A DNA stretch of 60,680 nucleotides. It comes from a bacterium ADurb.Bin236. GTDB lineage: Bacteria; UBP15; UBA6099. Numbering within the stretch: the first letter of the stretch is position 1; each line of letters starts with the position of its first letter. A program made the position numbers and the translations under genes. Below the pieces are notes generated by a model. The model did not search any database. It had not been told where the DNA came from and worked only from the letters and a program-made list of their open reading frames with translations. Of the stretch, positions 10,264-55,864 are shown piece after piece. The DNA is taken from contig MWCD01000019.1 of NCBI GenBank assembly GCA_002069885.1, forward strand, positions 1 through 60,680. The letters run 5' to 3'.

Positions 10264-12735
10264 TCAGCTTGGCAGTTTGATGTCGCAGACGGACCCGCTG
10301 ATTACGATTTCGTCGTTCACGCGGCTCACGTGGAACGTCTCGCCCTCGGAGTACCTGCACAGAAGCAGCTTCTCTGAGAGCGGGTCTTCGATATATCGCT
10401 GAACGAGCCTTCGGACGGGGCGCGCTCCGTTCACCGGGTCGTATCCTTCTTTGGCAATAAACTCAAGAGCTTCGTCGCTCACTTCGAGTTTCAGCCCCTT
10501 TGATTCGACGCGGTCTCTGAGCATCCCGATGAAAAGGTCGACGATGGCTCTGATGTCCTCTTTGGACAGGGCGCGGAACACCATCAGTTCGTCCACTCTG
10601 TTGAGGAATTCGGGCCTGAATGTTTTCTTCATTTCCTTGAGTATGTTTTCTTTCATCAGCTCGTATTCGCGCTCAAGTTCGGCGGGGTTCATGAGGTCGG
10701 GCTGAGCGCGCCTGAAGCCGACGGGGTTGGCGTTGCTGATAAGCTCCGCGCCAACGTTGGAGGTCATTATGACTATGGCGTTCTTGAAGCTGACTTTTCT
10801 TCCGTGCGAGTCCGTGAGCGTGCCGTCCTCCATAATCTGGAGGAGGATGTTGAACACTTCGGGGTGAGCCTTTTCAATCTCGTCGAGGAGGACGACGGAG
10901 TACGGTTTTCTGCGGATTGCGTCTGAGAGCTGGCCGCCTTCGTCGTAGCCGACGTATCCGGGGGGCGCTCCGACGAGGCGGGAGGTGGACGCTTTTTCCA
11001 TGTATTCCGACATGTCGATGCGGACGATTGCCTTTTCGTCTCCGAAGAGGAATTCTGCTAGGGCTTTGGCGAGTTCGGTTTTTCCTACGCCCGTCGGGCC
11101 GGCGAAAATGAAGCAGCCCATCGGGCGCTTCGGCTCTTTAAGCCCGACCCTGTGCCGCCTTATCGCTTTGGCGACGGTGATTATGGCTTGGTCCTGACCG
11201 ACGACGCGGTTCCTGAGCGTGTTTTCCATTTCCAGCAACTTGGCGGTCTCTTCCTCTTTGAGTTTGGAGACGGGGATGGAAGTCCACATGTAAACGATGT
11301 CCGAGATTTCATTTTCGGAGATTGTGAGCTGTTGGACGCCGGAGGAAGCGCGCCAGTCGTTTGATTTCTCTTTGATTTGATTTTCAAGCTCGCGCTCTTT
11401 GTCTCTGAGGGATGCGGCTAGTTCGAACTGCTGTCCCATGACTGCGGCGTTCTTCTCGACGCGCAGGGAATCGAGCTGGTCTTCGAGGCTCTTGAGGTCG
11501 GCTGGGGCGGCGGTGTGTTTAATCCTGACGCGGGAGGACGCCTCGTCGATGAGGTCGATGGCTTTGTCGGGGAGGAACCTGTCCTGAATATACCTGCTGG
11601 AGAGTTGCGCCGCGGCGACAAGAGCCTCGTCGGTGATGACGACGCGGTGGTGGGTTTCATATCTGTCGCGCAGGCCCTTAAGGATGCTGATTGTCTCCTC
11701 TATGGTGGGTTCTTCGACGAAGACAGGCTGGAAGCGGCGTTCGAGCGCGGCGCTTTTCTCGATGTGTTTTTTGAACTCGTCGTAGGTGGTGGCGCCGATG
11801 CACTGAAGCTCGCCGCGGGCGAGGGCGGGTTTGAGGATGTTGGAGGCGTCGATGGCCCCCTCGGCGGCCCCGGCTCCGATTATGGTGTGAAGCTCGTCGA
11901 TGAACAGTATGATGTCGCCTTTGGACTGATAAATCTCGTTGACGACGCGTTTGAGGCGCTCTTCGAATTCCCCTCTGTATTTAGTGCCGGCCACTAGTCC
12001 GGCAAGGTCGAGGGAGAGCACCCTCTTGTCGTAAAGGATGGAAGGGACTTCCCGTTTGACGATCTGCTGGGCGAGACCTTCGACGATGGCGGTTTTGCCG
12101 ACGCCGGGGTCGCCGATCAGCACCGGGTTGTTTTTGGTGCGTTTGCTGAGAATCTGGATGACGCGCTCGATTTCAAGGTCGCGGCCCACGACGGGGTCGA
12201 GCTTGGTGTCTCTGGCCAGTTCGGTGAGGTCGCGGCTGAACTCGTCGAGGAAGGAGGCCTTGGATTTTCTTTTCTTGCTTTGCGCGGGCATGGGGGCGGA
12301 TTCGCCTTCGAGGAGGTTAATCACCTGCTGGCGCGCCTTGTCGAGAGCCATGCCGCGTTCGATGAGCATCTTGGCGGCGACGCCTTCGCCCTCTCTGACT
12401 AGGCCGAGGAGCAGGTGTTCGGTTCCGATGTGGGCGTGGCCAAGACCCCGCGCCTCCTCGAAGGAGAGTTCGAGGACTTTTTTCGAACTGGGAGTGAAAG
12501 CGATTTCGCGCGCCCGGCCTTTGCGCTCCGGAACGAACATGTCCGTCAGCGCGTTCATGAGAGAATCCACATCGACGCCGAGGCCGAGGGCGACTTTGAC
12601 AGCGAAACTCTCCCTGTCCTGAATCAGGGCGTACAGCACGTGCTCGGTGTCCACGTAGTTGTGGTTCAACTCTTCGGCTTTGCCCTGCGCAAGAATTATC
12701 ACTTTCCTAGCGTGCTCTGTGAATTTATCCCACAT
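10264..12735 (-). CDS. clpC: ATP-dependent Clp protease ATPase ClpC
   Basis: Hsp100 unfoldase that feeds proteins to ClpP and refolds or removes damaged proteins. The product is about 823 residues. In order: two Clp N-terminal repeats ([26 protein letters not shown] and a second [15 protein letters not shown]), AAA-1 with GDPGVGKT and LFIDELH, a UVR motif ([20 protein letters not shown]) that marks ClpC rather than ClpA or ClpB, and AAA-2 with GPTGVGKT and [15 protein letters not shown]. The frame opens at 12750, but the ATG at 12735 has a GGAG site 9 bases upstream and fits the family, so I chose it. A TATAAT-like -10 (12790-12795, minus strand) lies upstream. No ClpP or McsAB gene is nearby. 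Confidence 0.96.
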
Positions 12736-12867
12736 TTTGAGAATCTCCATTAGTTGTTATAAGTCCGGCGGAACGCCGAGCCTGCGCTAATTATAGTTAA
12801 GGACAAACAACATTTCCACAATAAAGGGTCGGGCAATGAAATAAAGGGCGGACGGGGGGCGGCCGGC

Positions 12868-13890
12868 TCACATTCCGTCGTAACGTTCAGGATAGATAAT
12901 GACGTCCGGTTCGGTCTCAGGCTCGTATTCCTTGCGGCGCTCGAAAGGGTTCTCCCGTCGTTCGGCGTCTCTTCTTTTCATCATGTTTACCATAGCCTGA
13001 GCGCGCACGGCGTCCGTCATTTTGATGTCCCCAGCTCCGAGAGTCTTCAGTTCGGAGTGGTACTTCTCAAGAGCGTCCCATTCCTCTTGAGTGCAGCCGT
13101 AGAGGCAGTTTTTGCTATCCATAGCGCGCCCCAGTTCCGGATTGGCCTGAAGGAACTTTTCGGACTGGCGGGCGAAAGAGTATTCGGGAGTCACGCGCGG
13201 CTCGAGGTCGAAGCGGAAGATTTTCTCGCGCGCTTCGATTCTCTTAATGTAGACGGGGATGCTGGACATGTTCCGTTCGTATCCGCCCCAAATATTGTCG
13301 TTGAACTGCTGTTGGTATTCCGCGAGAGACAGCGGGATGGCGACCGGGAGCGCGCCGATGTAAATTTTATCAAGATAGAAAAAAGGGCGGCTTTCCTTTT
13401 CGACCCAATAGGCCCGGACGATGACGGTTATGGTCATCTTGGAGCGGGAGCCTTTTTCGGTCGCTATGGCCTTGAGGTTGTCGTCCAGATTCATGTCGTC
13501 CATTTTGTTTCCGATGAACTCCATCATGTTTCCGAAAGGAATGTCAAAACGCAACTTCAGCTTGCCCGGGCTCAAGAAGAGATAAGGGTCGGTGGCGATG
13601 GGCATTCCGCTGGGGGTTATGAAGTTGTCGAACATCTGGCGGATGTAGGCGTTCGCCTCGATTTCAGTTATTTCGAACTCTTGTATGTCTTTGCCGCTTT
13701 CGAGGTCCAAGAGCATCCTGATGAATTTGCCTTTGAGGTGTTCGCGCGCGGTTGGATAGACGCCGTCCACGATGACGTCGCTGACGATGTATTCGGGCGG
13801 GTTGGTTTTGACCGCGATAAAAACGCCTGCAGCGAGGATGAAAAAGGCGACAGTGAGTACGGCGAATATTTTGAAAGACAGTTTAATCAT
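12868..13890 (-). CDS. Membrane-anchored protein of unknown function
   Basis: The 340-residue product has one N-terminal membrane segment (residues 7-27, FAVLTVAFFILAAGVFIAVK) and a large extracytoplasmic part of mixed beta and helix. A stretch ITEIEANAYIRQMF followed by beta-rich sequence is loosely like proteins with a single anchor and a lipid-binding-type fold, but I do not recognise the family. The C-terminal 60 residues are charged (MKRRDAERRENPFERRKEYE). The single anchor places it in the inner membrane with most of it outside the cytosol. It lies about 130 bases upstream of clpC on the same strand. No enzyme motif is visible. Confidence 0.6.
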   Translation of the reverse strand: MIKLSFKIFAVLTVAFFILAAGVFIAVKTNPPEYIVSDVIVDGVYPTAREHLKGKFIRMLLDLESGKDIQEFEITEIEANAYIRQMFDNFITPSGMPIATDPYLFLSPGKLKLRFDIPFGNMMEFIGNKMDDMNLDDNLKAIATEKGSRSKMTITVIVRAYWVEKESRPFFYLDKIYIGALPVAIPLSLAEYQQQFNDNIWGGYERNMSSIPVYIKRIEAREKIFRFDLEPRVTPEYSFARQSEKFLQANPELGRAMDSKNCLYGCTQEEWDALEKYHSELKTLGAGDIKMTDAVRAQAMVNMMKRRDAERRENPFERRKEYEPETEPDVIIYPERYDGM

Positions 13891-44979: not shown

Positions 44980-46350
44980 TCAATCGTTATCGTCAATGAA
45001 TTTGTTGACTTGGGAGACGAGTTTTTCGTTCAGGCGGCGCGCTTCGTCCGCCGTGGGAGCTTCGGAAATAATCCTCATAATCGGCTCGGTGTTAGAGGGC
45101 CGCACGAGCGTCCATTTTTTTCCGTCGCTGATTTTGATGCCTTCGGTTAAATCAATCTTTCGGTTTTTGTTTTTTTCGATGAGCAACTCAAGGACTTCGA
45201 GAGCTTTGCCCGCAGGGCATGGCGTCGCCGTTTTTGCCATGTGATAGCGGGGCAGGGCGGCCACAACTTCGGAGACAGGCCCCTTTTTTCTCGCAAAATA
45301 ATGCAAAGCTATAGCCATCCCCACAAAGCTGTCGCGCGCGAAATTCACTTCGGGATATATCACACCGCCGTTGCCTTCGCCGCCGATGACGGCGTTCTCG
45401 GATTTCATGGTCTCGGTGACGTTTATCTCCCCGATCATGCTTTTGACGACCCTGCACCCGCGCGCAATAGCGATATCGTCAACGGCGCTGGAAGTGGCGA
45501 GCGTCGTCACAACCGTGCCCGGCGTTTTTGACAGTATGTGGTCGACAGCCACGCCGAGAGTGTAATCTTCGCCGATAGGCGCGCCCAGTTCGGAAACGAT
45601 AGCCAGTCTGTCCGCGTCCGCGTCCTGCGCGAATCCTATGTCGGCTTTGTGTTTAAGCACGGCATCCGAAAGCATCGCGAGATTTTCAGGCAGCGGCTCG
45701 GGAGGACGCGGGAATATCCCGTCAGGCGTCGCGTTAATCGCCACGACCTCACAACCGAGCTTCTTCAGCAGGAATGGAGACATAACGGAGCCTGCGCCGT
45801 TGACGCAGTCCACCACGACTTTGACCGGCCGGCGGCGCGAAACGGGCAGAGGCCCGAAACTGTTTATAATCGCGTCTATATGTTTTTCAACTGCGCGCCT
45901 GTGCGTCTTCGGCTCCTTCATCGCGTCGCTGCGCGCTTTCGCGTAGTCTCCCTGATGGTAGATGTCGAGCAGTTCGCGCGCCTGAAATGAATTCAGGAAA
46001 CAACCGTCTTCCCGGATGAATTTGAAAGCGTTCCATTCGGCGGGATTGTGGCTGGCGGTAATGGCTATGCCGCCGGCGGCTCGGAGTTGACGAACGGCAA
46101 GCTGTATGGTCGGGACCGGGCTAATGTCCACCAGAACGGCTTGGCAGCCCGCGGATGTGAGGCCGGCCAGAGCGGCGTGTTGCGCCATTTCGCCGCTCGT
46201 GCGGGTGTCGCGTCCTACTACCACCTTGCCGCCGCCGGCGTATGTGCCGAAACTTTCCGCGAAACGCACGAGCAGTCCCGGAGTCAAAGACTCTCCGACG
46301 ACGCCCCGCACGCCGGAAATGCTTATCTTAAGAGAGCGCACGCCCTTCAT
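44980..46350 (-). CDS. Phosphohexomutase (phosphoglucosamine mutase/phosphomannomutase family)
   Basis: About 456 residues. Interconverts hexose 1- and 6-phosphates through a phosphoserine. Motifs are intact: KISISGVRGVVGES, VVVGRDTRTSGEM, AITASHNPAEWNAFKF (catalytic Ser100), FAQDADADRLAIV (metal DxDxDR), GGEGNGGVIYPEV (sugar loop) and RPSNTEPIMRI (phosphate-binding loop). The ATG at 46350 has an AGAGGAG site; the longer frame to 46464 lies inside the neighbouring gene. Its start overlaps the end of a second, degenerate copy by 4 bases. The exact sugar (glucosamine or mannose) is not clear. Confidence 0.9.
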   Translation of the reverse strand: MKGVRSLKISISGVRGVVGESLTPGLLVRFAESFGTYAGGGKVVVGRDTRTSGEMAQHAALAGLTSAGCQAVLVDISPVPTIQLAVRQLRAAGGIAITASHNPAEWNAFKFIREDGCFLNSFQARELLDIYHQGDYAKARSDAMKEPKTHRRAVEKHIDAIINSFGPLPVSRRRPVKVVVDCVNGAGSVMSPFLLKKLGCEVVAINATPDGIFPRPPEPLPENLAMLSDAVLKHKADIGFAQDADADRLAIVSELGAPIGEDYTLGVAVDHILSKTPGTVVTTLATSSAVDDIAIARGCRVVKSMIGEINVTETMKSENAVIGGEGNGGVIYPEVNFARDSFVGMAIALHYFARKKGPVSEVVAALPRYHMAKTATPCPAGKALEVLELLIEKNKNRKIDLTEGIKISDGKKWTLVRPSNTEPIMRIISEAPTADEARRLNEKLVSQVNKFIDDND

Positions 46351-47708
46351 CCCCCGATAAGCTCCTCTCCGATGGCAATAAGCTCCCGCGCCCGCTTTTC
46401 CGACCTCGCTTCGGCCATGACCCGGATTATCGGCTCGGTGTTGGACGGCCTGATGTGCAGCCAAGAATTCGCCCAGCCAAGCTTCACTCCGTCCGACAGG
46501 TCAACGTTCGCGTTTGAGTATCGTGTTTTAGCTTCTGTTCTTGCGTGGTGAATCGCTCGGTGAATCACCGAAAAGTCCAGTTGCGCGTTTTTTTTCAGAG
46601 TCACAAACTTCGGAATCGCAGCCGCGGCCGCCGATACCGTCGAGCCTGTCCTAGCGATGAAATCCAGTATGAAAGCCATCGCCGCCATGCCGTCGCAAGC
46701 GTAATGCAGTCGGGGGAATATGACCCCGCCGCTGCCTTCGCCCGCTATGGCCGCTTTATGTTTGGCTGCCGCCTCCGCGACGTACGCCTGCCCGATGCGG
46801 GTTCTCATCACCGACGCTTTGTGCTTTTTAGCCACTGCGTCTATCGCTCCGGTGGTTGACAGATTAGTGACGACCAACCCGCCGGGATTGTCTGAGAGCC
46901 ATATCGAAACGCATAAAGCGAGCGTGTAATCTTCGGGAAGGATGGTTCCATCATCCGTGACGATGCCGAGCCTTTCTCCTGCGGTGTCGAGCATGAAACC
47001 CGCGTCGCAGCCGACCGCCCGGACAATCGACCGTGTCTGCCGCATATTGGCCGCGTTGGGTTCAGGGTCGTGCGGGAAAGGCTCTCCCGGCTCCGCGTTT
47101 ATCGCGACCGTTTTGCAGCCGAGAGCGTCAAGCAGTTCTAACGCCGCCGCCGAGCATGCGCCGTTGCAGGTGTCGACGGCCACCTTCAATCCGGCTTTTT
47201 TTATGCGCCGCACATCCGTCATGCCGACTATCGCCGCGATATGTTCAGATACGGCCCCGCTAGAGCCTGTCTTTTCAAGAGGAACTATCTTGTCCCATCC
47301 CGCTCTTTCGAACTCCCCGGCGTGGTACACGTCCAGCAGTTCGTCCGCCTCCCGCGCGTTGAAGTAGAACCCGTCGGCGCGGATGAACTTCAGAGCGTTC
47401 CAGTCTTCCGAGTTATGTCCGGCTGAAACGGCTATTCCGCCGACCGCGCCGGAAGCCGCGATGGTCCTTTGCATGGAAGGTATGGGGCAGACGCCCAAGT
47501 CGTATGTTTTGCAACCGGCGGCAAGAAGCCCGGATATCGCCGCCCCGCGCGCCATAGAGCCTGATCGCCGCGCGTCGTCGCAGATATAAACTTTTCCCCG
47601 GCCGACGCATGTGGCGAACGCTTCGGCAAACTGCGCGACAAGGTGAGGCGTGAAGGTTTCCCCGACCACGCCCCTTACTCCGGTTATTCCGATTTTAAGA
47701 GGATTCAT
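46347..47708 (-). CDS. Phosphohexomutase paralogue lacking catalytic residues
   Basis: The 453-residue product is a full-length relative of the next gene and keeps the overall pattern (KIGITGVRGVVGETFTP, GEGSGGVIFPR, RPSNTEPIIRV). But the catalytic serine is Gly97 (VSAGHNSEDW against TASHNP), the metal motif DxDxDR reads DTAGER, and GRDTR is CDDAR. So phosphoryl transfer is unlikely; the sugar-phosphate-binding loops remain. It may regulate or partner the intact copy, with which it overlaps by 4 bases (ATGA). It follows a 37-codon gene directly (TGAATG). Confidence 0.85.
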   Translation of the reverse strand: MNPLKIGITGVRGVVGETFTPHLVAQFAEAFATCVGRGKVYICDDARRSGSMARGAAISGLLAAGCKTYDLGVCPIPSMQRTIAASGAVGGIAVSAGHNSEDWNALKFIRADGFYFNAREADELLDVYHAGEFERAGWDKIVPLEKTGSSGAVSEHIAAIVGMTDVRRIKKAGLKVAVDTCNGACSAAALELLDALGCKTVAINAEPGEPFPHDPEPNAANMRQTRSIVRAVGCDAGFMLDTAGERLGIVTDDGTILPEDYTLALCVSIWLSDNPGGLVVTNLSTTGAIDAVAKKHKASVMRTRIGQAYVAEAAAKHKAAIAGEGSGGVIFPRLHYACDGMAAMAFILDFIARTGSTVSAAAAAIPKFVTLKKNAQLDFSVIHRAIHHARTEAKTRYSNANVDLSDGVKLGWANSWLHIRPSNTEPIIRVMAEARSEKRARELIAIGEELIGG

Positions 47709-47891: not shown

Positions 47892-48401
47892 TTAGCTCTT
47901 GGCCATCCCCGCCAGTTTCTTAAGGTTCACCTTGTACATGTCTTTCTGGTTCTTATACAACTCCTCGGCGATGCGTTGCTCGATTATCGGCCCTATAAGC
48001 GGTATCTTTACGCTTATTGTTCCGTCCAGTGTTTGGAATACCCGGCCGTTCTTCGCGGCATACGTCCATTTCCCTTTGCAGTGAAAAACGTTCCGCAGGT
48101 GAAAGGGGATAATCTCATAGTGATAAACCATCGTAGAAGGGTCCCAGCGGCTTACTTCACGCCATGAAAGCATGTCCGGCGTCAGTATCTTCTGCGCTAT
48201 CTTCGGGATCTGTCCGTGAGCGCAATATGTGTACTCGATATCTTGTCTTCCATCCGGATGCTGCGTGAAGTGAGACCTTTTTATGCTAGTCACATTCGGC
48301 ATATCCTCGTATATGGACGGGTTTTCGATGATGTCGTAATGCGTAACCTTTAATACTAGATCGAGCGGGTGGTCGTACTCGTGGGTCATTCCTAATTTCA
48401 T
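47892..48401 (-). CDS. DUF2505-like (START-type) protein
   Basis: The 169-residue product matches the START/SRPBCC-like DUF2505 pattern: THEYDHPLDLVLKV at the N-terminus, then a beta-rich centre and a helix with the family-like ending GTISVKIPLIGPIIEQRIAEEL. It probably binds a hydrophobic ligand. Strong GGAGAG ribosome site and a promoter (48438-48466) upstream. It is divergent from the TetR gene, whose operator lies about 130 bases away, so it may or may not be part of that regulon. Confidence 0.72.
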   Translation of the reverse strand: MKLGMTHEYDHPLDLVLKVTHYDIIENPSIYEDMPNVTSIKRSHFTQHPDGRQDIEYTYCAHGQIPKIAQKILTPDMLSWREVSRWDPSTMVYHYEIIPFHLRNVFHCKGKWTYAAKNGRVFQTLDGTISVKIPLIGPIIEQRIAEELYKNQKDMYKVNLKKLAGMAKS

Positions 48402-48562: not shown

Positions 48563-48592
48563 TTGACAACCGAAGAAGAGTCGCGGTAGTAT
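48563..48592 (+). promoter_or_regulatory. Promoter for TetR gene and methyltransferase cluster
   Basis: TTGACA at 48563-48568, 18-base spacer, TAGTAT at 48587-48592. Transcription would begin around 48599, inside the palindromic operator that follows. Confidence 0.65.
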
Positions 48593-48593
48593 T

Positions 48594-48609
48594 GACTGAC
48601 TAGTCAGTC
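48594..48609. promoter_or_regulatory. 16-bp palindromic TetR operator
   Basis: GACTGACTAGTCAGTC is a perfect palindrome just after the -10 element, at the expected transcription start and 21 bases before the TetR gene ATG. This is a typical place and shape for TetR-family autorepression. Confidence 0.75.
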
Positions 48610-48629
48610 GGTTTGGAGGCGCGATAACT

Positions 48630-49349
48630 ATGAAACAGATAAACTTGAAAAATGCTTCAATGGATACTTTTGCGTCATCGTCGGATATCCCGGCATCCTC
48701 TATTTCTCTAAGCAAAAAACCGAAAAATGAAATAGCGGACATAGCCGAGAAGTTGTCGAAGAAAGAGATGACAAGAAAGAAAATACTGGACGCCGCGCTA
48801 ATTGTCTTCTCCCAGAAGGGTTACGACAAGGCCAATGTGTCCGATATCGTGCGCGAGGTTGGAGTCGCGCAGGGCACTTTCTACTATCACTTCAAAGACA
48901 AGAAAACGGCGCTTGTCGAATTGCTGAACAGTTTTTTTGACGCCATGAAGAAGCTTGTCGCGAATTGGGCCGCCACAACGGACACGAGCGCCGATATGGC
49001 GCTAGTGTTTTCCCGGAACGTGGCGGACTTGCTCAGAAAAAACACCTGTCTCGGCCAGATAATCAGGAATGAAACGAACAATCCCGACCCGGAAATCAGG
49101 TTGCTAATAAAAGAATTCCACAATTATTTATATAGACAAGCCGAGTTGGCGCTTCTTCTGGGCATGAGACTCGGAGTGGTCAGGGAGATGGACGCGCGAA
49201 TAGCGGGCGTCGCGTTGGTGGGGATGATCGAGAGCGTGGTGTTTGAACTGATAGACAGAGTCGAAGATGTCGATGTTGAACACGTGATAAAAGAGATATC
49301 AGAAATGCAGAACATAGGAATACGTCCGACGCCGGATCCGAGGAGTTAG
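48630..49349 (+). CDS. TetR/AcrR family transcriptional regulator
   Basis: The 239-residue product has the helix-turn-helix at about 47-90: MTRKKILDAALIVFSQKGYDKANVSDIVREVGVAQGTFYYHFKDKKTALVELL in parts, all family residues present. An unusual 45-residue Ser/Lys-rich extension precedes it. The rest is an all-helical ligand domain. It is probably repressor of its own gene and of the five genes that follow, through the palindrome at 48594. The ATG has a GGAGG site. FadR- or QacR-like ligands are usual; the real one is unknown. Confidence 0.9.
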   Translation: MKQINLKNASMDTFASSSDIPASSISLSKKPKNEIADIAEKLSKKEMTRKKILDAALIVFSQKGYDKANVSDIVREVGVAQGTFYYHFKDKKTALVELLNSFFDAMKKLVANWAATTDTSADMALVFSRNVADLLRKNTCLGQIIRNETNNPDPEIRLLIKEFHNYLYRQAELALLLGMRLGVVREMDARIAGVALVGMIESVVFELIDRVEDVDVEHVIKEISEMQNIGIRPTPDPRS

Positions 49350-49393
49350 CGTGAGCGGCGGGAATCTGGCGTCCGTCTAGGGAGGATATTACA

Positions 49394-51052
49394 ATGGCGC
49401 AGTCGTTGGAAGAAAGGCTGAGGTCGAGGCTTGCGGAGGCTGTCGCGCAGGCGGCTGAAAGCGTATCGACGCAGGCGGTTTCAGGGTATCTTGTGAAAAG
49501 GCTTATTCAGGAGGGCTCTTTCACAAATGTGAAGGACGTCGACGGCGCGACGACTGGTTTCAGGGTTAAAGTAAAAAACAGGCTGGGCGTGGCGACTATC
49601 GTGGGATGCGACCCTTTGAAAATCGACGGAGAGATTTTTGATCCGGGCGTGATAACGATAGAAAAGAACAGGAAATCTTATTGCGCGGCTGAGTTATCTG
49701 AGACTCTTCCTCTGGGAGTTTCTTTCGGCGACGAACTGACGATAACGGTACAGGACGCGCAGGGACTGGAGTCCGGCGAGCATGATATCGAGCTTGCTCT
49801 GAAGATGGTCGGGCTGGGCCTTGTGCAAGCGAAATATAAGGACAAGCTGACAGGCGACGGCGCAGCGGCTCCGAGGGTGAAAAAGAAAACCGCCTTCGCC
49901 GAATCGGCCGGGGAGGGCGGCTCTTACTCCGAAATGTTGCGCCGGACGGTGGAAATGGCCGCCGGGCATATCGGAGCCGCGTCTCTGGCCGAGTGCGCTA
50001 AGACTCTCGATGTCATTGTTCTTGATATGAAAGACGCGGACGAGAAGTATTCTGTAAAATTGACATCCGACGGGCGCGCGGAATTCGTCGAAGGCGCAGC
50101 GTCCGGCGGTTCCATACTGGTAATCAAAACCACCAAGACGGCGTTCCACGACATGGCGCACGGCAAACTGAACGCCGGAATCGCGTATGCCAGAGGGGAC
50201 ATCAAGCTCGAAGGGATTCCTCTTTTGAAACTGCGCGGGATGGACAAGCTGATAACCGCAATATTCAGAGGCTACAGGGCGGCGTCGGACGGAGTGGAAT
50301 TCGATTCGGTTCCCGAAAGCATTGAAGGCGGGATTCTGGAACAGGCTCTCGGCGTGGCTTTCTCGGTGTTCGACGAGGTTCTCAAGGGGCTGGACAAGGC
50401 GCTTGGCGCGTTCGGCATGAAATATTTCTATGAAAAATCCTTAAACAGGATAGAACTCGTATGGGACGCGCTCGATAAGGAAATGAGAAGGATGCTTTCA
50501 TTCGGTCGGGAGGAAGCGGAAGAAGAGCCGAAAGCCCCCAAACCGCGTGCCGCCGCGCCAGCCGCAAAAAAATCCGCGTCTTCCTCCGCTCCGGCAAAAT
50601 CGCTGCAAGACAGACTCAGGGATAGAATCTCTTCCGTCATTGAAACCGCAGTCATAGAAATGTCTCGCAGTTCGGTGTCGGGCTACCTTGTCAAACGCTT
50701 AGTCGTTCCCGGGAGTTTTAAAAATTTTGTTGCGGACGGCGAGGTCGCCGGTTTTGAGGTAAAACTGAAAAACAAGCTTGGGGTGGCCACTGTCATCGGA
50801 TTCACGGATGTGAAAGTGGACGGAGAATCTTTTGGTCTTGATTTGATAGAAATCGCGAAAGGCTCGCGGAAGGTAGCCGCTTCCGAAGTGTCCGACAAGG
50901 CCCCGTTGTCGGTCTCTTTCGGAGACGAGTTGACAATCAGGGTGAAACGCGCCGGGGGGATAACTCCGGGCAGACACAAGATATCTCTAGGAGTGGATAT
51001 GGTTGGGCTTGGAGGGATGGATGTCGATTATGAAGAAGAACTTTCCGCTTGA
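49394..51052 (+). CDS. SCP2 domain protein flanked by two copies of an unknown domain
   Basis: The 552-residue product has an A-SCP2-A' layout. Residues 5-154 and 404-552 are clear repeats of each other: SGYLVKRL, then G-F-x-V-K-x-K-N-x-LGVAT, DGExF, SFGDELTI and MVGLG are shared. Residues about 175-310 form an SCP2 lipid-binding domain (LTSDGRAEFVEGAASGGSILV and KLNAGIAYARGDIKLEGIPLLKL). A Lys/Ala/Pro linker (about 375-403) separates it from A'. I do not recognise the repeated domain. It lies between the TetR and the MttB-like genes, so it likely serves that system, perhaps carrying a hydrophobic substrate. Strong GGGAGG ribosome site. Confidence 0.8.
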   Translation: MAQSLEERLRSRLAEAVAQAAESVSTQAVSGYLVKRLIQEGSFTNVKDVDGATTGFRVKVKNRLGVATIVGCDPLKIDGEIFDPGVITIEKNRKSYCAAELSETLPLGVSFGDELTITVQDAQGLESGEHDIELALKMVGLGLVQAKYKDKLTGDGAAAPRVKKKTAFAESAGEGGSYSEMLRRTVEMAAGHIGAASLAECAKTLDVIVLDMKDADEKYSVKLTSDGRAEFVEGAASGGSILVIKTTKTAFHDMAHGKLNAGIAYARGDIKLEGIPLLKLRGMDKLITAIFRGYRAASDGVEFDSVPESIEGGILEQALGVAFSVFDEVLKGLDKALGAFGMKYFYEKSLNRIELVWDALDKEMRRMLSFGREEAEEEPKAPKPRAAAPAAKKSASSSAPAKSLQDRLRDRISSVIETAVIEMSRSSVSGYLVKRLVVPGSFKNFVADGEVAGFEVKLKNKLGVATVIGFTDVKVDGESFGLDLIEIAKGSRKVAASEVSDKAPLSVSFGDELTIRVKRAGGITPGRHKISLGVDMVGLGGMDVDYEEELSA

Positions 51053-51070
51053 CCGGACTGGGAGGCGAAA

Positions 51071-52480
51071 ATGATATTCAGAAAACTTAAGGTTCTATCG
51101 GACGACGAAGTGGTAAAGATAGTCGAGGGAGCGTTCCGGATACTGAGGACGACGGGCTGCCGGTTCGAGGACGAGAAGTGCATGGACGAGTTGGAATCCG
51201 CAGGCTGCGACGTTGACCGCGCGACTATGGTCGTAAAGTTCAGCGAGGATGTGATTTTCGACGCGCTGGACAACGTGCCGTCGGTGACACCGCCGGACGA
51301 CCTTCCCAAAGTCCGCGTGGCCAGCGCCAACAAGGGAATGATTCTCGACTGCAAAACGAAGAAGATGAGACCGGGCACGACCGAGGACGCGCGCAACGTG
51401 ATTAAGCTGTGCAACTCGCTGGACAACATCACTCTCGCTTCGGCAGGAATAGTCTCGTCCGACGTGCCCGTGCAGGCGGTCGAAGTTTTTAATATCGGCC
51501 TGCTCATGAAATATTCCGAGAAACTTTTCAACCAATGGATTTATGAGACGGAAAACGTGCCTGTCGTAATGGAGATGGCGGAAGTGATAACGGGAGGCTC
51601 GGAGGAACTGCGCGGCTCGAAGTTCCTCAGTTACATGCTCAATTCGGTTTCTCCTCTGAGGTTTCCGCCGAAACAGCTAGCGATATCCCGCATGTACGCC
51701 GAAAGGGATTTGCCGATAGCTGTCGCGTCAATGACGCAGGCGGGAAGCGTGTCTCCGGCAACTCCCGCCGGATGCCTAGTATTGTGCGCCGCCGAGTTGC
51801 TCGCCGGGCTGGTGTGGGTCAGGTCTCTGCGGACGAAAACGGAAGTGGCTCTCGGCGCTTTGACACAGGTGATGCAGATGCGCACCGGGAGGCAGTTGTA
51901 CGCTTCACCGGAACAAACCCTGATGTTCCTCGGAGCGCACCAGATAATCCGCTATTTCGGATACTGCAGCGGGAACACCAGCTTCGAGACGGATTCCTGC
52001 GACTTCGACATGCAGAACGGCTGGGAAAAGGCGCTGTCGGGCGTGATGTGCTGGGCGGCAGGATGCGACATGTTCGGTCAGGCCGGATTTCTCTTCGACG
52101 GTTTCTCGATGGAGCAGCTTGTGCTGGACAACGAGGCGCTCGGCATGCTCAGCAAGGTTGGCGAGGGCGTTCTGGTGAACGACGACACTCTGGCGCTCGA
52201 TGTGATTAAGAGCGTCGGGCCGGGAGGCAACTTCCTAGGCGAGAAACACACGATGGCTCACGCGAGGGACGCATGGCGGCCCTCCATTTTCCAGAGAGTC
52301 AGCTTCGAGCATTGGGCCAAGAGCGGCGGGATGCGCATTATCGCCCACGCCCACGACAAAGTGAACGAAATCCTTTCCTCAAAAGAGCTATCGCTGCAGA
52401 TACCTGAAGACCAAGCCAAGGCGATTGACGAGATTGTCGCGCGAAGAGTCGCGGCCGTCGCCGAGAAGGGAGCTTGCTGA
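51071..52480 (+). CDS. MttB-like trimethylamine methyltransferase family protein, copy 1
   Basis: The 469-residue product belongs to the MttB superfamily of corrinoid-dependent methyltransferases, which moves a methyl group from a methylated amine, often quaternary, to a corrinoid protein. Visible: LEDNITLASAGIVSSDVPVQAVEVFNIGLLMKYSEK in part, SPATPAGCLVLCAAELLAGLVW and LVNDDTLALDVIKSVGPGGNFLGEKHTM. There is no in-frame TAG, so it does not need pyrrolysine. A GGGAGG site precedes the ATG. The next gene is a paralogue one base away, followed by a corrinoid protein. Substrate unknown. Confidence 0.88.
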   Translation: MIFRKLKVLSDDEVVKIVEGAFRILRTTGCRFEDEKCMDELESAGCDVDRATMVVKFSEDVIFDALDNVPSVTPPDDLPKVRVASANKGMILDCKTKKMRPGTTEDARNVIKLCNSLDNITLASAGIVSSDVPVQAVEVFNIGLLMKYSEKLFNQWIYETENVPVVMEMAEVITGGSEELRGSKFLSYMLNSVSPLRFPPKQLAISRMYAERDLPIAVASMTQAGSVSPATPAGCLVLCAAELLAGLVWVRSLRTKTEVALGALTQVMQMRTGRQLYASPEQTLMFLGAHQIIRYFGYCSGNTSFETDSCDFDMQNGWEKALSGVMCWAAGCDMFGQAGFLFDGFSMEQLVLDNEALGMLSKVGEGVLVNDDTLALDVIKSVGPGGNFLGEKHTMAHARDAWRPSIFQRVSFEHWAKSGGMRIIAHAHDKVNEILSSKELSLQIPEDQAKAIDEIVARRVAAVAEKGAC

Positions 52481-52481
52481 C

Positions 52482-53885
52482 ATGATTTTCAATAAACTCG
52501 ACGTCGTTTCAACTCAGGAAATCGAAAGGATTCTCGACACCTCTTACAGGATACTGGAGGAAGTCGGGTTCAAATACGAATGGGACTGGGCTTTGGAACT
52601 GCTTGAGAAACGCGGCTGCAAGGTTGACATGGCGAAACAAATCGCCTGCGTCCCGCGCTCGCTCACTCTCGAAGCCGTCGCCAATATGAAACCGCTCGCG
52701 TCGCCGCAGGACTATCCGAAAATATTCTGGGCTCCATGGATCGGCATGAACATCATCGATTTCGAGACGAAAACCAAGCGCGCGGGAACTCTCAACGACT
52801 GCCGGAATGTGATAAATCTGGTCAATCACCTCGAGAACATATCCGTGTCCTCGACCGGCGTGGTTCCTCAGGATGTGCCTATAGAGATATCCGACATCTA
52901 CATGGCGGAGTTGCTGTTCAAGTATTCCGAGAAGATAGTAACGACGTGGACATACACTATAGAGTCGGCCCACGATCTGGTGGAGATGGCGAAGGCGGTT
53001 ACAGGCGGAGAAGACGAGCTTCGCGGCTCGCGCATGATAAACTATCTTGCCGAACCGGTCAGTCCGCTGAAACTTTCCAAGCATTCGCTAGAAATAATGA
53101 AAGTGTACGGAGAACTGGATCAGCCGATAAACATGGGGCCGATGGTGCAGGTGGGAACGACCGGCCCGGCGACTCTCGCGGGATCGGTGGCTCTGCAGAT
53201 GGCAGAAAATCTTGCGGGTCTCGTATATCTTTATTGTTTAGGCTCGAACTCGCCGATGGCTCTCGGCGGTCCGATGCAGACCAGCGACATGCGCACCGGC
53301 AGATGCCTCTACGCCGCACCGGAACTATCACTCATTCATCTCGCTCTGGTCGCCTGCGCTCATCATCTCGGTTTCATGTCCGGCTGCACGTCCGGTCTGA
53401 CCGATTCCAACTGCATGGATTTTCAGAGCGGATGGGACCGCGGGCTGAGCATGATGCTCCTATGGGCGGCCGGCTCCGAAAGCATCGGCATGCGCGGCGA
53501 AATCGGCGGCGGCGAAGGCTTTTGCCTCGAATCGCTCGTTGTCGAAAATGAAATGGGCGGCATGCTCAGAGTCCTATCCGAGGGCATCCTCGTCAACGAC
53601 GACACTCTCGCGCTCGATGTCATTGAAAAGGTCGGAATCGGCGGCAACTACCTGATGGAAAAACATACCATGCGGCACGCGCGAGATTTCTGGCAGCCGG
53701 GCGTCTTCACTCAGGACACCTTCGACAAATACTGGTCCGAACCCAAGCCTATCGAGCAGAGGGCGCGCGAGCGGGTAGAAAAGATTCTCTCAGAAAACAG
53801 CCTAGAGCTTCAGGTCTCCGAAGATGTCGCGGCGGAGATCGACAGGATTGTGTCGCGAAGAGTGAAAGCGGCAGGTCTGCAATAA
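52482..53885 (+). CDS. MttB-like trimethylamine methyltransferase family protein, copy 2
   Basis: The 467-residue product is a paralogue of the previous gene and keeps the same motifs (GPATLAGSVALQMAENLAGL, LALGGPMQTSDMRTGRC-like, LVNDDTLALDVIEKVGIGGNYL). The ATG at 52482 has an AAGGGAG site in the end of the previous gene; the frame extends to 52425 but inside that gene. No amber codon. Two adjacent, different MttB copies suggest either two substrates or a heteromeric enzyme. The corrinoid protein follows at 53944. Confidence 0.88.
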   Translation: MIFNKLDVVSTQEIERILDTSYRILEEVGFKYEWDWALELLEKRGCKVDMAKQIACVPRSLTLEAVANMKPLASPQDYPKIFWAPWIGMNIIDFETKTKRAGTLNDCRNVINLVNHLENISVSSTGVVPQDVPIEISDIYMAELLFKYSEKIVTTWTYTIESAHDLVEMAKAVTGGEDELRGSRMINYLAEPVSPLKLSKHSLEIMKVYGELDQPINMGPMVQVGTTGPATLAGSVALQMAENLAGLVYLYCLGSNSPMALGGPMQTSDMRTGRCLYAAPELSLIHLALVACAHHLGFMSGCTSGLTDSNCMDFQSGWDRGLSMMLLWAAGSESIGMRGEIGGGEGFCLESLVVENEMGGMLRVLSEGILVNDDTLALDVIEKVGIGGNYLMEKHTMRHARDFWQPGVFTQDTFDKYWSEPKPIEQRARERVEKILSENSLELQVSEDVAAEIDRIVSRRVKAAGLQ

Positions 53886-53943
53886 GACTCCCGCCTGTCG
53901 CGGATAGTCGTTTATAAATGAATAAAAATCTGGAGGTCTCATA

Positions 53944-54579
53944 ATGTCGCTGTTGGAGAAAATCAAGGATTCTATTATCGAGATGGAGCCGGAACTTACG
54001 GTCGAACTGACGCAATCGGCTCTGGCGGAAGGAATAGCCCCGATGGAAATCGTCGCGGGCGGCCTCATCTCCGGAATTGAAATCGTCGGCGTGAAATTCA
54101 AGAACGACGAGGTGTTTCTGCCCGAGGTCATGATGAGCGCTAAAGCCTTCAAAGACGGGTTCGCGGCGGTCTCGCCGAAACTGAAAGATTCCGGTTACGA
54201 GCCTAAGGGCCGCGTCCTCATCGGCTCGGTGAAAGGCGACATCCACGACATCGGCAAAAACATCGTCATCGCCCTGTTGCAGGGCAACGGCTACGAAGTT
54301 CACGACGCAGGCGTGGACGCTCCTCCGGAGAGATTCGTCGATATGGTCAGGGAAATTAAACCCAACGTCGTCGGGATGTCCGCTCTGTTGACGACGACTA
54401 TGGCGTTTATGAGAGACACCGTGTCCGCGCTGAAAGAAGCTGGACTGAGGGATTCCCTGAAGATAATCGTCGGCGGCGCTCCCGTTTCCGCCGATTTCGC
54501 CAAAGAGATAGGCGCAGACGGATACGGCGAAGACGCGGGCGAAGCCGTCGACCTCGTCAAAAGCCTGTTGGCGAGTTGA
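53944..54579 (+). CDS. Corrinoid (cobalamin-binding) methyl-carrier protein
   Basis: The 211-residue product has the two-part structure of MtbC/MttC-type carriers: an N-terminal helical cap (1-90) and a B12-binding domain with GSVKGDIHDIGKNIV (lower axial ligand His101), NGYEVHDAGVDAPPERFV, GMSALLTTTM and IIVGGAPVSADFAKEIGADGYGEDA. It accepts the methyl group from the MttB-like proteins. A GGAGG site precedes the ATG. No methyltransferase that passes the methyl on (to folate or CoM) and no activator (RamA-like) is in the window. Confidence 0.94.
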   Translation: MSLLEKIKDSIIEMEPELTVELTQSALAEGIAPMEIVAGGLISGIEIVGVKFKNDEVFLPEVMMSAKAFKDGFAAVSPKLKDSGYEPKGRVLIGSVKGDIHDIGKNIVIALLQGNGYEVHDAGVDAPPERFVDMVREIKPNVVGMSALLTTTMAFMRDTVSALKEAGLRDSLKIIVGGAPVSADFAKEIGADGYGEDAGEAVDLVKSLLAS

Positions 54580-54673
54580 TTATATGCAAACGACCCTGCC
54601 GTCCCGGACTACGGCTCTTTAGACATGAACTCTTGCGCCGCCGCTTCGGCGTTGCGCTCGAAAGGACTCTCGT

Positions 54674-55864
54674 ATGGACTCCAAGCTAAGATTCGGCAGC
54701 CGCGTCGTATCCGGATGGAAATCGCCGTCACGCGAGCCGAGACCGGTCAATCCTCCAATCTACCAGAGCACGACTTACGTTTACGACTCTCTTGAAGACT
54801 TCATGGAGGCCGGCTCTGAACAGATGCTCGGCGAGGGAGGGCGGTACTTTTACACCAGAACGGGCAATCCCACGAACGCGATGTTCGAAGAGAAAATCGC
54901 GGAACTTGAAGGGGGCGAGCGCGCCGTCGCTTTCGCCAGCGGCATGGCCGCCATATCAACCGCCTTGCTCTCTCTTCTGAGAGCGGGCGACAGAGTGGTC
55001 GCTCACAGCAAGATGTACAGCGCGTCCGACACGCTTTTCGGACAGTATCTTCCGGGCCTCGGAATAGAGGTCGATATGACGGATTTGACGGATTACGCAA
55101 AGATGAAAAAGGCGCTATCGCGGCCCGCGAAAGTCCTTTTCATAGAGACCCCGGCAAACCCGATGGTCGAGATAATAGATATCCCGGCGGCGGCGAAACT
55201 CGCGCGCGCTTCCGGCTGCGTCACGGTTGTGGACAGCACATGGGCGTCTCCTTATCTCATGCGCCCGCTTGAGCTTGGGGCGGACCTCGTCGCGTCCAGT
55301 TCTACTAAATACATCAGCGGACACGACGACGCGCTCGGCGGCTATGTCGCCGGTGGCGCCGAACTGGTCGCGGCTGTCGACAACTATATGCTCGTTCTCG
55401 GCGGCTCGATGAGTCCGTTGCACGCTTTCTTTTCTTGGCGGGGAATACGCACTCTTCACGTCCGCATGGACAGACATTGCTCGAACGCTTTGGAAGTCGC
55501 CAAATTCCTCGAAAACCATCCCAAAATTATGAAAGTGAATTATCCCGGCCTCAAGAGCCATCCGCAGCATGATGTGGCGAAGAAAACAATGTCCGATTAC
55601 TCCGGCATGATAGCTTTCTGGCTGAAGGGCGGGTACGAGGCGGCTTCAAAGCTACTCGCCAATGTTAAAGTCTGCAATGTGGCGGTCAGCCTCGGCGACG
55701 CCTGCACGCTAATAGAGCATCCCGCGACAATGACCCATATCACTGTCGATGAAGAAAGAAGGAAACGGCTCGGCATCACGGACAATCTAATCCGGCTCTC
55801 CGTCGGACTTGAAGACGTCCGAGACCTTGTCCGCGATCTAGACCGCGCGCTCTCCAAAGTTTAA
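54674..55864 (+). CDS. PLP-dependent trans-sulfuration enzyme (methionine gamma-lyase-like)
   Basis: The 396-residue product is of the Cys/Met metabolism PLP family: YFYTRTGNPTNAMFEEKIAELE, FASGMAAISTALLSLL, VVDSTWASPYLMRPLELGADL (Asp187), SSSTKYISGHDDALGG with PLP lysine K212, and a C-terminal ITDNLIRLSVGLEDVRDLV. Related members are methionine gamma-lyase, cystathionine gamma-synthase and O-acetylhomoserine sulfhydrylase; I cannot choose between them. Its place 94 bases after the corrinoid gene on the same strand suggests a link between the methyl group and sulfur amino acids. AAGGA ribosome site. Confidence 0.88.
   Translation: MDSKLRFGSRVVSGWKSPSREPRPVNPPIYQSTTYVYDSLEDFMEAGSEQMLGEGGRYFYTRTGNPTNAMFEEKIAELEGGERAVAFASGMAAISTALLSLLRAGDRVVAHSKMYSASDTLFGQYLPGLGIEVDMTDLTDYAKMKKALSRPAKVLFIETPANPMVEIIDIPAAAKLARASGCVTVVDSTWASPYLMRPLELGADLVASSSTKYISGHDDALGGYVAGGAELVAAVDNYMLVLGGSMSPLHAFFSWRGIRTLHVRMDRHCSNALEVAKFLENHPKIMKVNYPGLKSHPQHDVAKKTMSDYSGMIAFWLKGGYEAASKLLANVKVCNVAVSLGDACTLIEHPATMTHITVDEERRKRLGITDNLIRLSVGLEDVRDLVRDLDRALSKV

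Follow-up and report, generated by a model that had tools for sequence, protein, structure and literature searches.

What does a corrinoid methyltransferase operon do with a protein built like a lipid carrier? The question is raised by a six-gene cassette at positions 48563–55864 of contig MWCD01000019.1 from the bacterium ADurb.Bin236 (phylum UBP15), whose 60,680 nucleotides were analyzed as one window. The cassette encodes a TetR-family regulator, a protein in which two C-glycoside-deglycosidase-beta-like (CGDB) domains flank an SCP2-like domain, two MttB-family methyltransferases, a corrinoid protein, and a pyridoxal phosphate (PLP) enzyme. The known substrates of MttB enzymes lacking pyrrolysine are small, water-soluble quaternary amines, and the MttB superfamily is large with few known substrates (MthB was counted as the sixth, PMC12155760). 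We find a conserved operon of the corrinoid methyltransferase kind that has an unusual subunit and, in what was searched, occurs in a single small phylum; it probably strips methyl groups from a perhaps fat-like compound by way of vitamin B12.

Six intact open reading frames, all starting with ATG and preceded by purine-rich sequence, occupy positions 48630–55864 on the forward strand. In order, they encode the TetR-family regulator (48630–49349; PF00440, 1.1e-15), the 552-residue CGDB-SCP2-CGDB protein (49394–51052; PF19906, 3e-26 in two stretches), MttB1 (51071–52480; PF06253, 4.8e-77), its paralogue MttB2 (52482–53885; PF06253, 8.8e-69), a corrinoid protein of the MttC/MtgC type (53944–54579; PF02607, 2.2e-18; PF02310, 1.9e-29), and a methionine-gamma-lyase-like enzyme of the Cys/Met-metabolism family (54674–55864; PF01053, 3.9e-134). 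The intergenic gaps are 44, 18, 1, 58, and 94 bp, in agreement with the same-strand run with gaps of 1 to 94 bp described in an earlier sequence-only reading; the GDIHDIG motif that it saw in the corrinoid protein and its two MttB-like proteins without an amber codon were likewise confirmed.

The same gene order recurs in three UBP15 genera belonging to two families, with different flanking genes, and a putative operator, TGACTGACTAGTCAGTC, precedes the TetR gene in all three. Because order and operator are kept despite the differing flanks, the cassette is not a chance arrangement; it is a conserved unit. The CGDB-SCP2-CGDB gene is present in 6/7 UBP15 genomes, while one UBP15 genome (95% complete) lacks both this protein and the two MttBs. 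Between the window and the sister genera, identities are ∼50% for TetR, 54–56% for the CGDB-SCP2-CGDB protein, 70–71% for MttB1, 75–81% for MttB2, 67–69% for the corrinoid protein, and 77% for the PLP enzyme; locus L005 is near-identical to the window. The ratio of nonsynonymous to synonymous substitution (dN/dS; Nei-Gojobori, at most three relatives) lies between 0.00 and 0.20 for every gene pair computed, including 0.00–0.15 for MttB1 and 0.004–0.094 for MttB2, indicating strong purifying selection. A search with MttB2 across 84,980 species, which can detect close relatives only, returned five loci, every one with cassette genes. The plasmid search with MttB2 yielded 148 records, all below 60% identity and the best rows below 30%, and the four neighborhoods opened held other genes; the CGDB-SCP2-CGDB protein found no plasmid match. 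An order kept only in close strains, which the sequence-only reading named as refuting its proposal, is therefore half the case: the order spans three genera and two families, but no cassette was seen outside this one small phylum in what was searched.

To which kind of methyltransferase do MttB1 and MttB2 belong? Both match PF06253 near end to end (259.5 and 232.2 bits, gathering threshold 25), placing them in the superfamily; they share 43% identity and contain no in-frame amber codon or internal stop. They are not pyrrolysine-containing trimethylamine methyltransferases, given the missing amber codon, a pyrrolysine column occupied by Glu or Leu (Glu in MttB1), and TIGR02369 scores of 311 and 273 bits versus a cut-off of 525. 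In a tree of 35 rows that included three reference structures, the two proteins form one clade (100/100) divided into two subclades (each 100/100), which places the duplication before the divergence of the genera sampled. Neither the 100/99 clade that unites MtgB with a Sinorhizobium structure nor a widespread clade containing MttBs that adjoin homocysteine methyltransferases includes the pair, whose nearest relatives beyond UBP15 are ∼30% identical.

The pair also departs from MtgB at the proposed betaine site. Residues Y94, N199, R309, and H345 of MtgB were proposed to form the betaine site by docking, not from mutants (PMC6855144). The corresponding columns read Ala, Asn, Gly, and a gap in MttB1 and Trp, Glu, Gly, and a gap in MttB2, so that three of the four residues are changed in the former and all four in the latter, while the D-D-Q-G core is kept in both. 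Judged from these sequence differences and the tree position, the pair does not correspond to glycine betaine methyltransferase, and a glycine-betaine role is unlikely. Most known MttB-family substrates bear a carboxylate, a likely binding determinant (PMC12155760), and the loss of the Arg may therefore hint at a different kind of substrate. Like MtgB/MtgC of Desulfitobacterium hafniense and Methanolobus vulcani, the cassette combines a non-pyrrolysine PF06253 barrel, with its D-D-Q-G core, and a two-domain corrinoid protein; unlike that system, it has two paralogous MttBs in a clade of their own, encodes no transporter, and includes the CGDB-SCP2-CGDB, TetR, and PLP genes in its operon. The separate clade among the reference enzymes compared and the altered betaine site bear out the sequence-only proposal of a distinct corrinoid methyltransferase system.

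The unusual subunit is the product of the second gene, with one CGDB domain at each end and the SCP2-like domain between them. Its PF19906 score (91.9 bits, gathering threshold 27.6) and CGDB fold identify the CGDB domains, and in the predicted model the C-terminal domain matches C-glycoside deglycosidase beta structures with Z up to 15.2. The middle region scores 15.4 bits against PF02036, below the cut-off of 21.3; in the model, whose confidence is modest, its fold matches SCP2 structures with Z scores as high as 11.5. The earlier label “SCP2-type protein” would thus apply at most to this domain, not to the 552-residue protein as a whole. The CGDB domains share the beta-sandwich fold of C-glycoside deglycosidase beta subunits (DgpB, DfgB, and CGD beta; PF19906), from which the cassette protein differs in carrying two such domains on one chain around the SCP2-like domain. 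A whole C-glycoside deglycosidase system was rejected, as no alpha subunit was recognized among the cassette proteins. Among 386 genomes, the complete protein was not found outside UBP15, and none of the 17 MttB neighborhoods examined outside the phylum contains a CGDB or SCP2 gene. No report of a lipid-carrier-type partner for systems of this kind turned up in the literature searched, in which no paper paired SCP2 with corrinoid methyltransferases or DUF6379 with C-glycosides.

CGDB-like domains also occur in other settings. At locus L018 (6264–7172 and 8147–9760; G005:C131, in the window's genus), one such domain forms a fusion with a URO-D (MtaA/CmuA-like) methyltransferase and an SCP2-domain gene lies close by, and CGDB-URO-D methyltransferase fusions are found in two unrelated genomes (L178, 8740–10266; L179, 7490–9016). 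CGDB domains thus recur with methyltransferase barrels in three genomes, with SCP2 seen alongside only in UBP15. A further CGDB-like domain sits N-terminally on an HMG-CoA reductase-like protein (L155, 316–1872; G221:C26), as in Pfam PF25653. We propose that the CGDB-SCP2-CGDB protein is a substrate-presenting subunit whose CGDB domains, by analogy with CGDB on its own alpha subunit, may dock on the MttB barrels. A partial parallel is offered by the MthB-MthC-MthA-MthK choline/phosphocholine system of Eubacterium limosum (PMC12155760), likewise a Wood-Ljungdahl organism, which pairs its MttB-family enzyme with a co-encoded accessory protein that acts on the substrate, as the CGDB-SCP2-CGDB protein would here. 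In E. limosum, however, that accessory protein is a kinase.

Where would the methyl group go? The corrinoid protein is identified as such by PF02607, PF02310, and the DxHxxG motif, with a TIGR02370 score of 210.6 against a cut-off of 215.3, and it groups (99/99) with the copy in the cassette at locus L006, apart from a second corrinoid protein of its own genome. In two sister genera (L006 and L007), the corrinoid and PLP genes are separated by a PF02574 homocysteine methyltransferase gene, whose product has as its nearest solved relative the homocysteine-binding portion of a methionine synthase from Thermotoga. The window's genus (four genomes, G000, G004, G005, and G006; up to 97% complete) gave no match to PF02574 or PF01717, and a known methionine synthase was therefore not found there. 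The ADurb.Bin236 genome encodes carbon monoxide dehydrogenase/acetyl-CoA synthase (CODH/ACS) and an AcsE-type methyltransferase on one contig, and a second pterin-binding protein is partly encoded at the end of a contig. A RACo-type activator is present in 7/7 UBP15 genomes, with one intact copy in ADurb.Bin236; stops flagged in two RACo genes do not interrupt the aligned protein core. The CODH/ACS, AcsE, and RACo genes suggest that methyl transfer to tetrahydrofolate is available, and the methyl group would pass to tetrahydrofolate in the window's genus and to homocysteine in the sister genera.

The sister-genus arrangement resembles MtgBCDE of Ruegeria pomeroyi, in which betaine demethylation has a proven, essential link to methionine synthesis by methyl transfer to homocysteine (PMC12478193). 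Both have a PF06253 enzyme, a corrinoid protein, and a homocysteine methyltransferase module, but the Ruegeria modules are scattered rather than linked and the partner proteins differ. An MtgBCDE identity was rejected for the window's cassette, whose genus lacks the homocysteine module in all four genomes. Elsewhere, in several lineages, MttB genes of a well-supported separate clade adjoin homocysteine methyltransferase genes (L043, L058, L060, L063, and L067), some also with a corrinoid protein and, at L060, a pterin-binding gene.

Among PF01053 subfamilies, methionine gamma-lyase comes nearest in sequence to the PLP enzyme, which keeps the PLP lysine as well as the Tyr and Arg residues that bind the cofactor. 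At Cys116 and Lys240-Asp241 (P. putida numbering), which we take to be the key methionine gamma-lyase positions, it has Ala and Met-Leu, replacements shared by the L006 copy. With a TIGR01328 score of 411 bits versus a cut-off of 549.7, it is not a canonical methionine gamma-lyase; the earlier description as methionine-gamma-lyase-like holds for the family but not for these residues. Two specificity positions are more hydrophobic than in methionine gamma-lyase. The genome has further PF01053 enzymes, possible homocysteine makers, and selection on the gene is kept without a homocysteine enzyme, so homocysteine supply is not evidently its sole role. In an unrelated genome (L054), an MttB-family gene (10395–11885) is followed by a PF01053 enzyme gene (12283–13686) whose product is 38% identical to that of the window. 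Of the two partners that the sequence-only reading called unusual, the SCP2 protein thus remains so at the 17 outside neighborhoods, while the PLP enzyme has a related counterpart near an MttB gene.

Upstream of the TetR gene, position 48563, where the cassette region begins, marks the −35 box of a predicted sigma-70-like promoter (48563–48592, forward strand; TTGACA, 18 nt, TAGTAT; 10/12 consensus matches). The promoter region is conserved in L003 and L005, and an equivalent (TTGACA...GATAAT) precedes the L006 TetR gene. Directly 3′ of the −10 box lies a putative TetR-type operator, TGACTGACTAGTCAGTCG (48593–48610), a 16-bp perfect palindrome that has a single match within the window, with 0 expected in shuffles. 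It is exact at L003, L005, and L008–L011, so that the window's genus has it unchanged in each of its four genomes, and it occurs once each upstream of TetR at L006 and L015, with one and two mismatches, respectively, to the pattern searched. The nearest solved structures to the regulator include 5gp9, 1vi0, and 3whb, the last being a fatty acid metabolism regulator of B. subtilis that matches over most of the length. FadR, the TetR-type acyl-CoA sensor, was rejected as its identity (NF053878, 71.8 bits versus a cut-off of 200). Taken with the SCP2 fold, this kinship makes a lipid-like substrate or inducer only a lead, not a result.

These observations fit a TetR-repressed operon for corrinoid-dependent demethylation. 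Once an inducer had released the repressor from its palindrome at the −10 box, the SCP2 domain of the CGDB-SCP2-CGDB protein would bind the methylated substrate and the two CGDB domains would dock on the MttB TIM barrels; MttB1 and MttB2 would then move methyl groups to the corrinoid protein's Co(I). As donor, a quaternary ammonium (or sulfonium) compound is probable, though not glycine betaine. From tetrahydrofolate, the methyl group would continue in the window's genus to CODH/ACS or to oxidation, whereas in the sister genera the linked homocysteine methyltransferase would additionally make methionine. RACo would re-reduce the corrinoid, and the PLP enzyme may process the amino-acid part of the demethylated product or make homocysteine. 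We infer the substrate class, docking role, methyl flow, and PLP reaction, and give the mechanism as a whole an even chance of being right; we are more confident of a corrinoid demethylation system as such and less confident of the lipid component. Several observations weigh against this mechanism. The SCP2 assignment is weak by sequence and its model is poor (mean predicted local distance difference test score, pLDDT, of 57 from 4 sequences), and the likeness of TetR to a fatty-acid regulator falls below the NCBIfam cut-off. The two CGDB-URO-D fusions in unrelated genomes have no SCP2 gene seen nearby. MtcB, MtpB, MtyB, and MthB were not in the tree, and a terminator-like hairpin at 54553–54575 could split off the PLP gene, although such hits are common by chance.

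Could the cassette instead be a folate-independent methionine module, in which a quaternary amine methyl group passes through the corrinoid to homocysteine, the PLP enzyme supplies homocysteine, and the CGDB-SCP2-CGDB protein is a scaffold? The PF02574 enzyme inside the cassette of two genera, the five other loci with neighboring MttB and PF02574 genes, and the proven essential link in Ruegeria pomeroyi (PMC12478193) all speak for it. Nevertheless, we regard this reading as unlikely, since the genus of the window keeps the cassette and its PLP gene under purifying selection with neither PF02574 nor PF01717, and other PF01053 enzymes could make homocysteine. A still less probable account is an ordinary small-betaine demethylase of the MtgBC kind, acting on glycine betaine or similar, with unrelated genes in the same operon. 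Glycine betaine methyltransferase is indeed the nearest solved structure for both MttBs, and MtgC is among the top NCBIfam models of the corrinoid protein, below cut-offs. Against this stand the position outside the MtgB clade, the altered betaine-site residues, the missing transporter in the cassettes of both the window and L006, and the conservation of the partner genes along with the MttBs in three genera.

The CGDB domains, whose best fold matches are deglycosidase beta subunits and which are also fused to a URO-D-type methyltransferase, from a family with varied methyl donors, raise the prospect of a glycoside substrate in place of a quaternary amine, with removal of methyl from a methylated sugar or from an O-methyl group on a natural-product glycoside. 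To our knowledge, however, all characterized MttB-family substrates are trimethylamine or quaternary amines. The domain is moreover not sugar-specific, as CGDB-like domains also occur on HMG-CoA reductase, and no relative of the CGD alpha subunit was recognized. With non-pyrrolysine MttB substrates described as quaternary amines (PMC12155760), we consider a glycoside highly improbable. An equally slim chance attaches to a betaine lipid of the diacylglyceryl-trimethylhomoserine (DGTS) kind taken from necromass, which SCP2 would carry, the MttBs would demethylate onto the corrinoid, and the PLP enzyme would cleave at the homoserine ether. The PLP enzyme belongs to a family that acts on gamma-substituted homoserines, and its two more hydrophobic specificity positions, noted above, would be in keeping with this idea. 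The DGTS synthase family PF11899 (BtaA) was not found in UBP15, which is compatible with a DGTS substrate but no test of it.

Beyond the cassette, a divergent DUF2505 gene (47892–48401; PF10698, 7.5e-10) shares the intergenic region with the TetR gene and is not upstream of the L006 cassette. The window also has a tandem pair of phosphoglucomutase/phosphomannomutase-type genes (44980–46464 and 46347–47708) that are ∼40% identical. Rfam and tRNA scans gave no match.

If the proposed corrinoid demethylation mechanism is correct, an MttB clade with a dedicated lipid-carrier-type subunit would point to substrates of a new class and to a novel means of delivering them to a corrinoid methyltransferase, and the CGDB-URO-D methyltransferase fusions suggest that such pairing extends more widely than this operon. 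Were the DGTS possibility true, the cassette would constitute a corrinoid route for a membrane lipid. For an uncultured phylum equipped with CODH/ACS, the system would provide a further source of one-carbon units.

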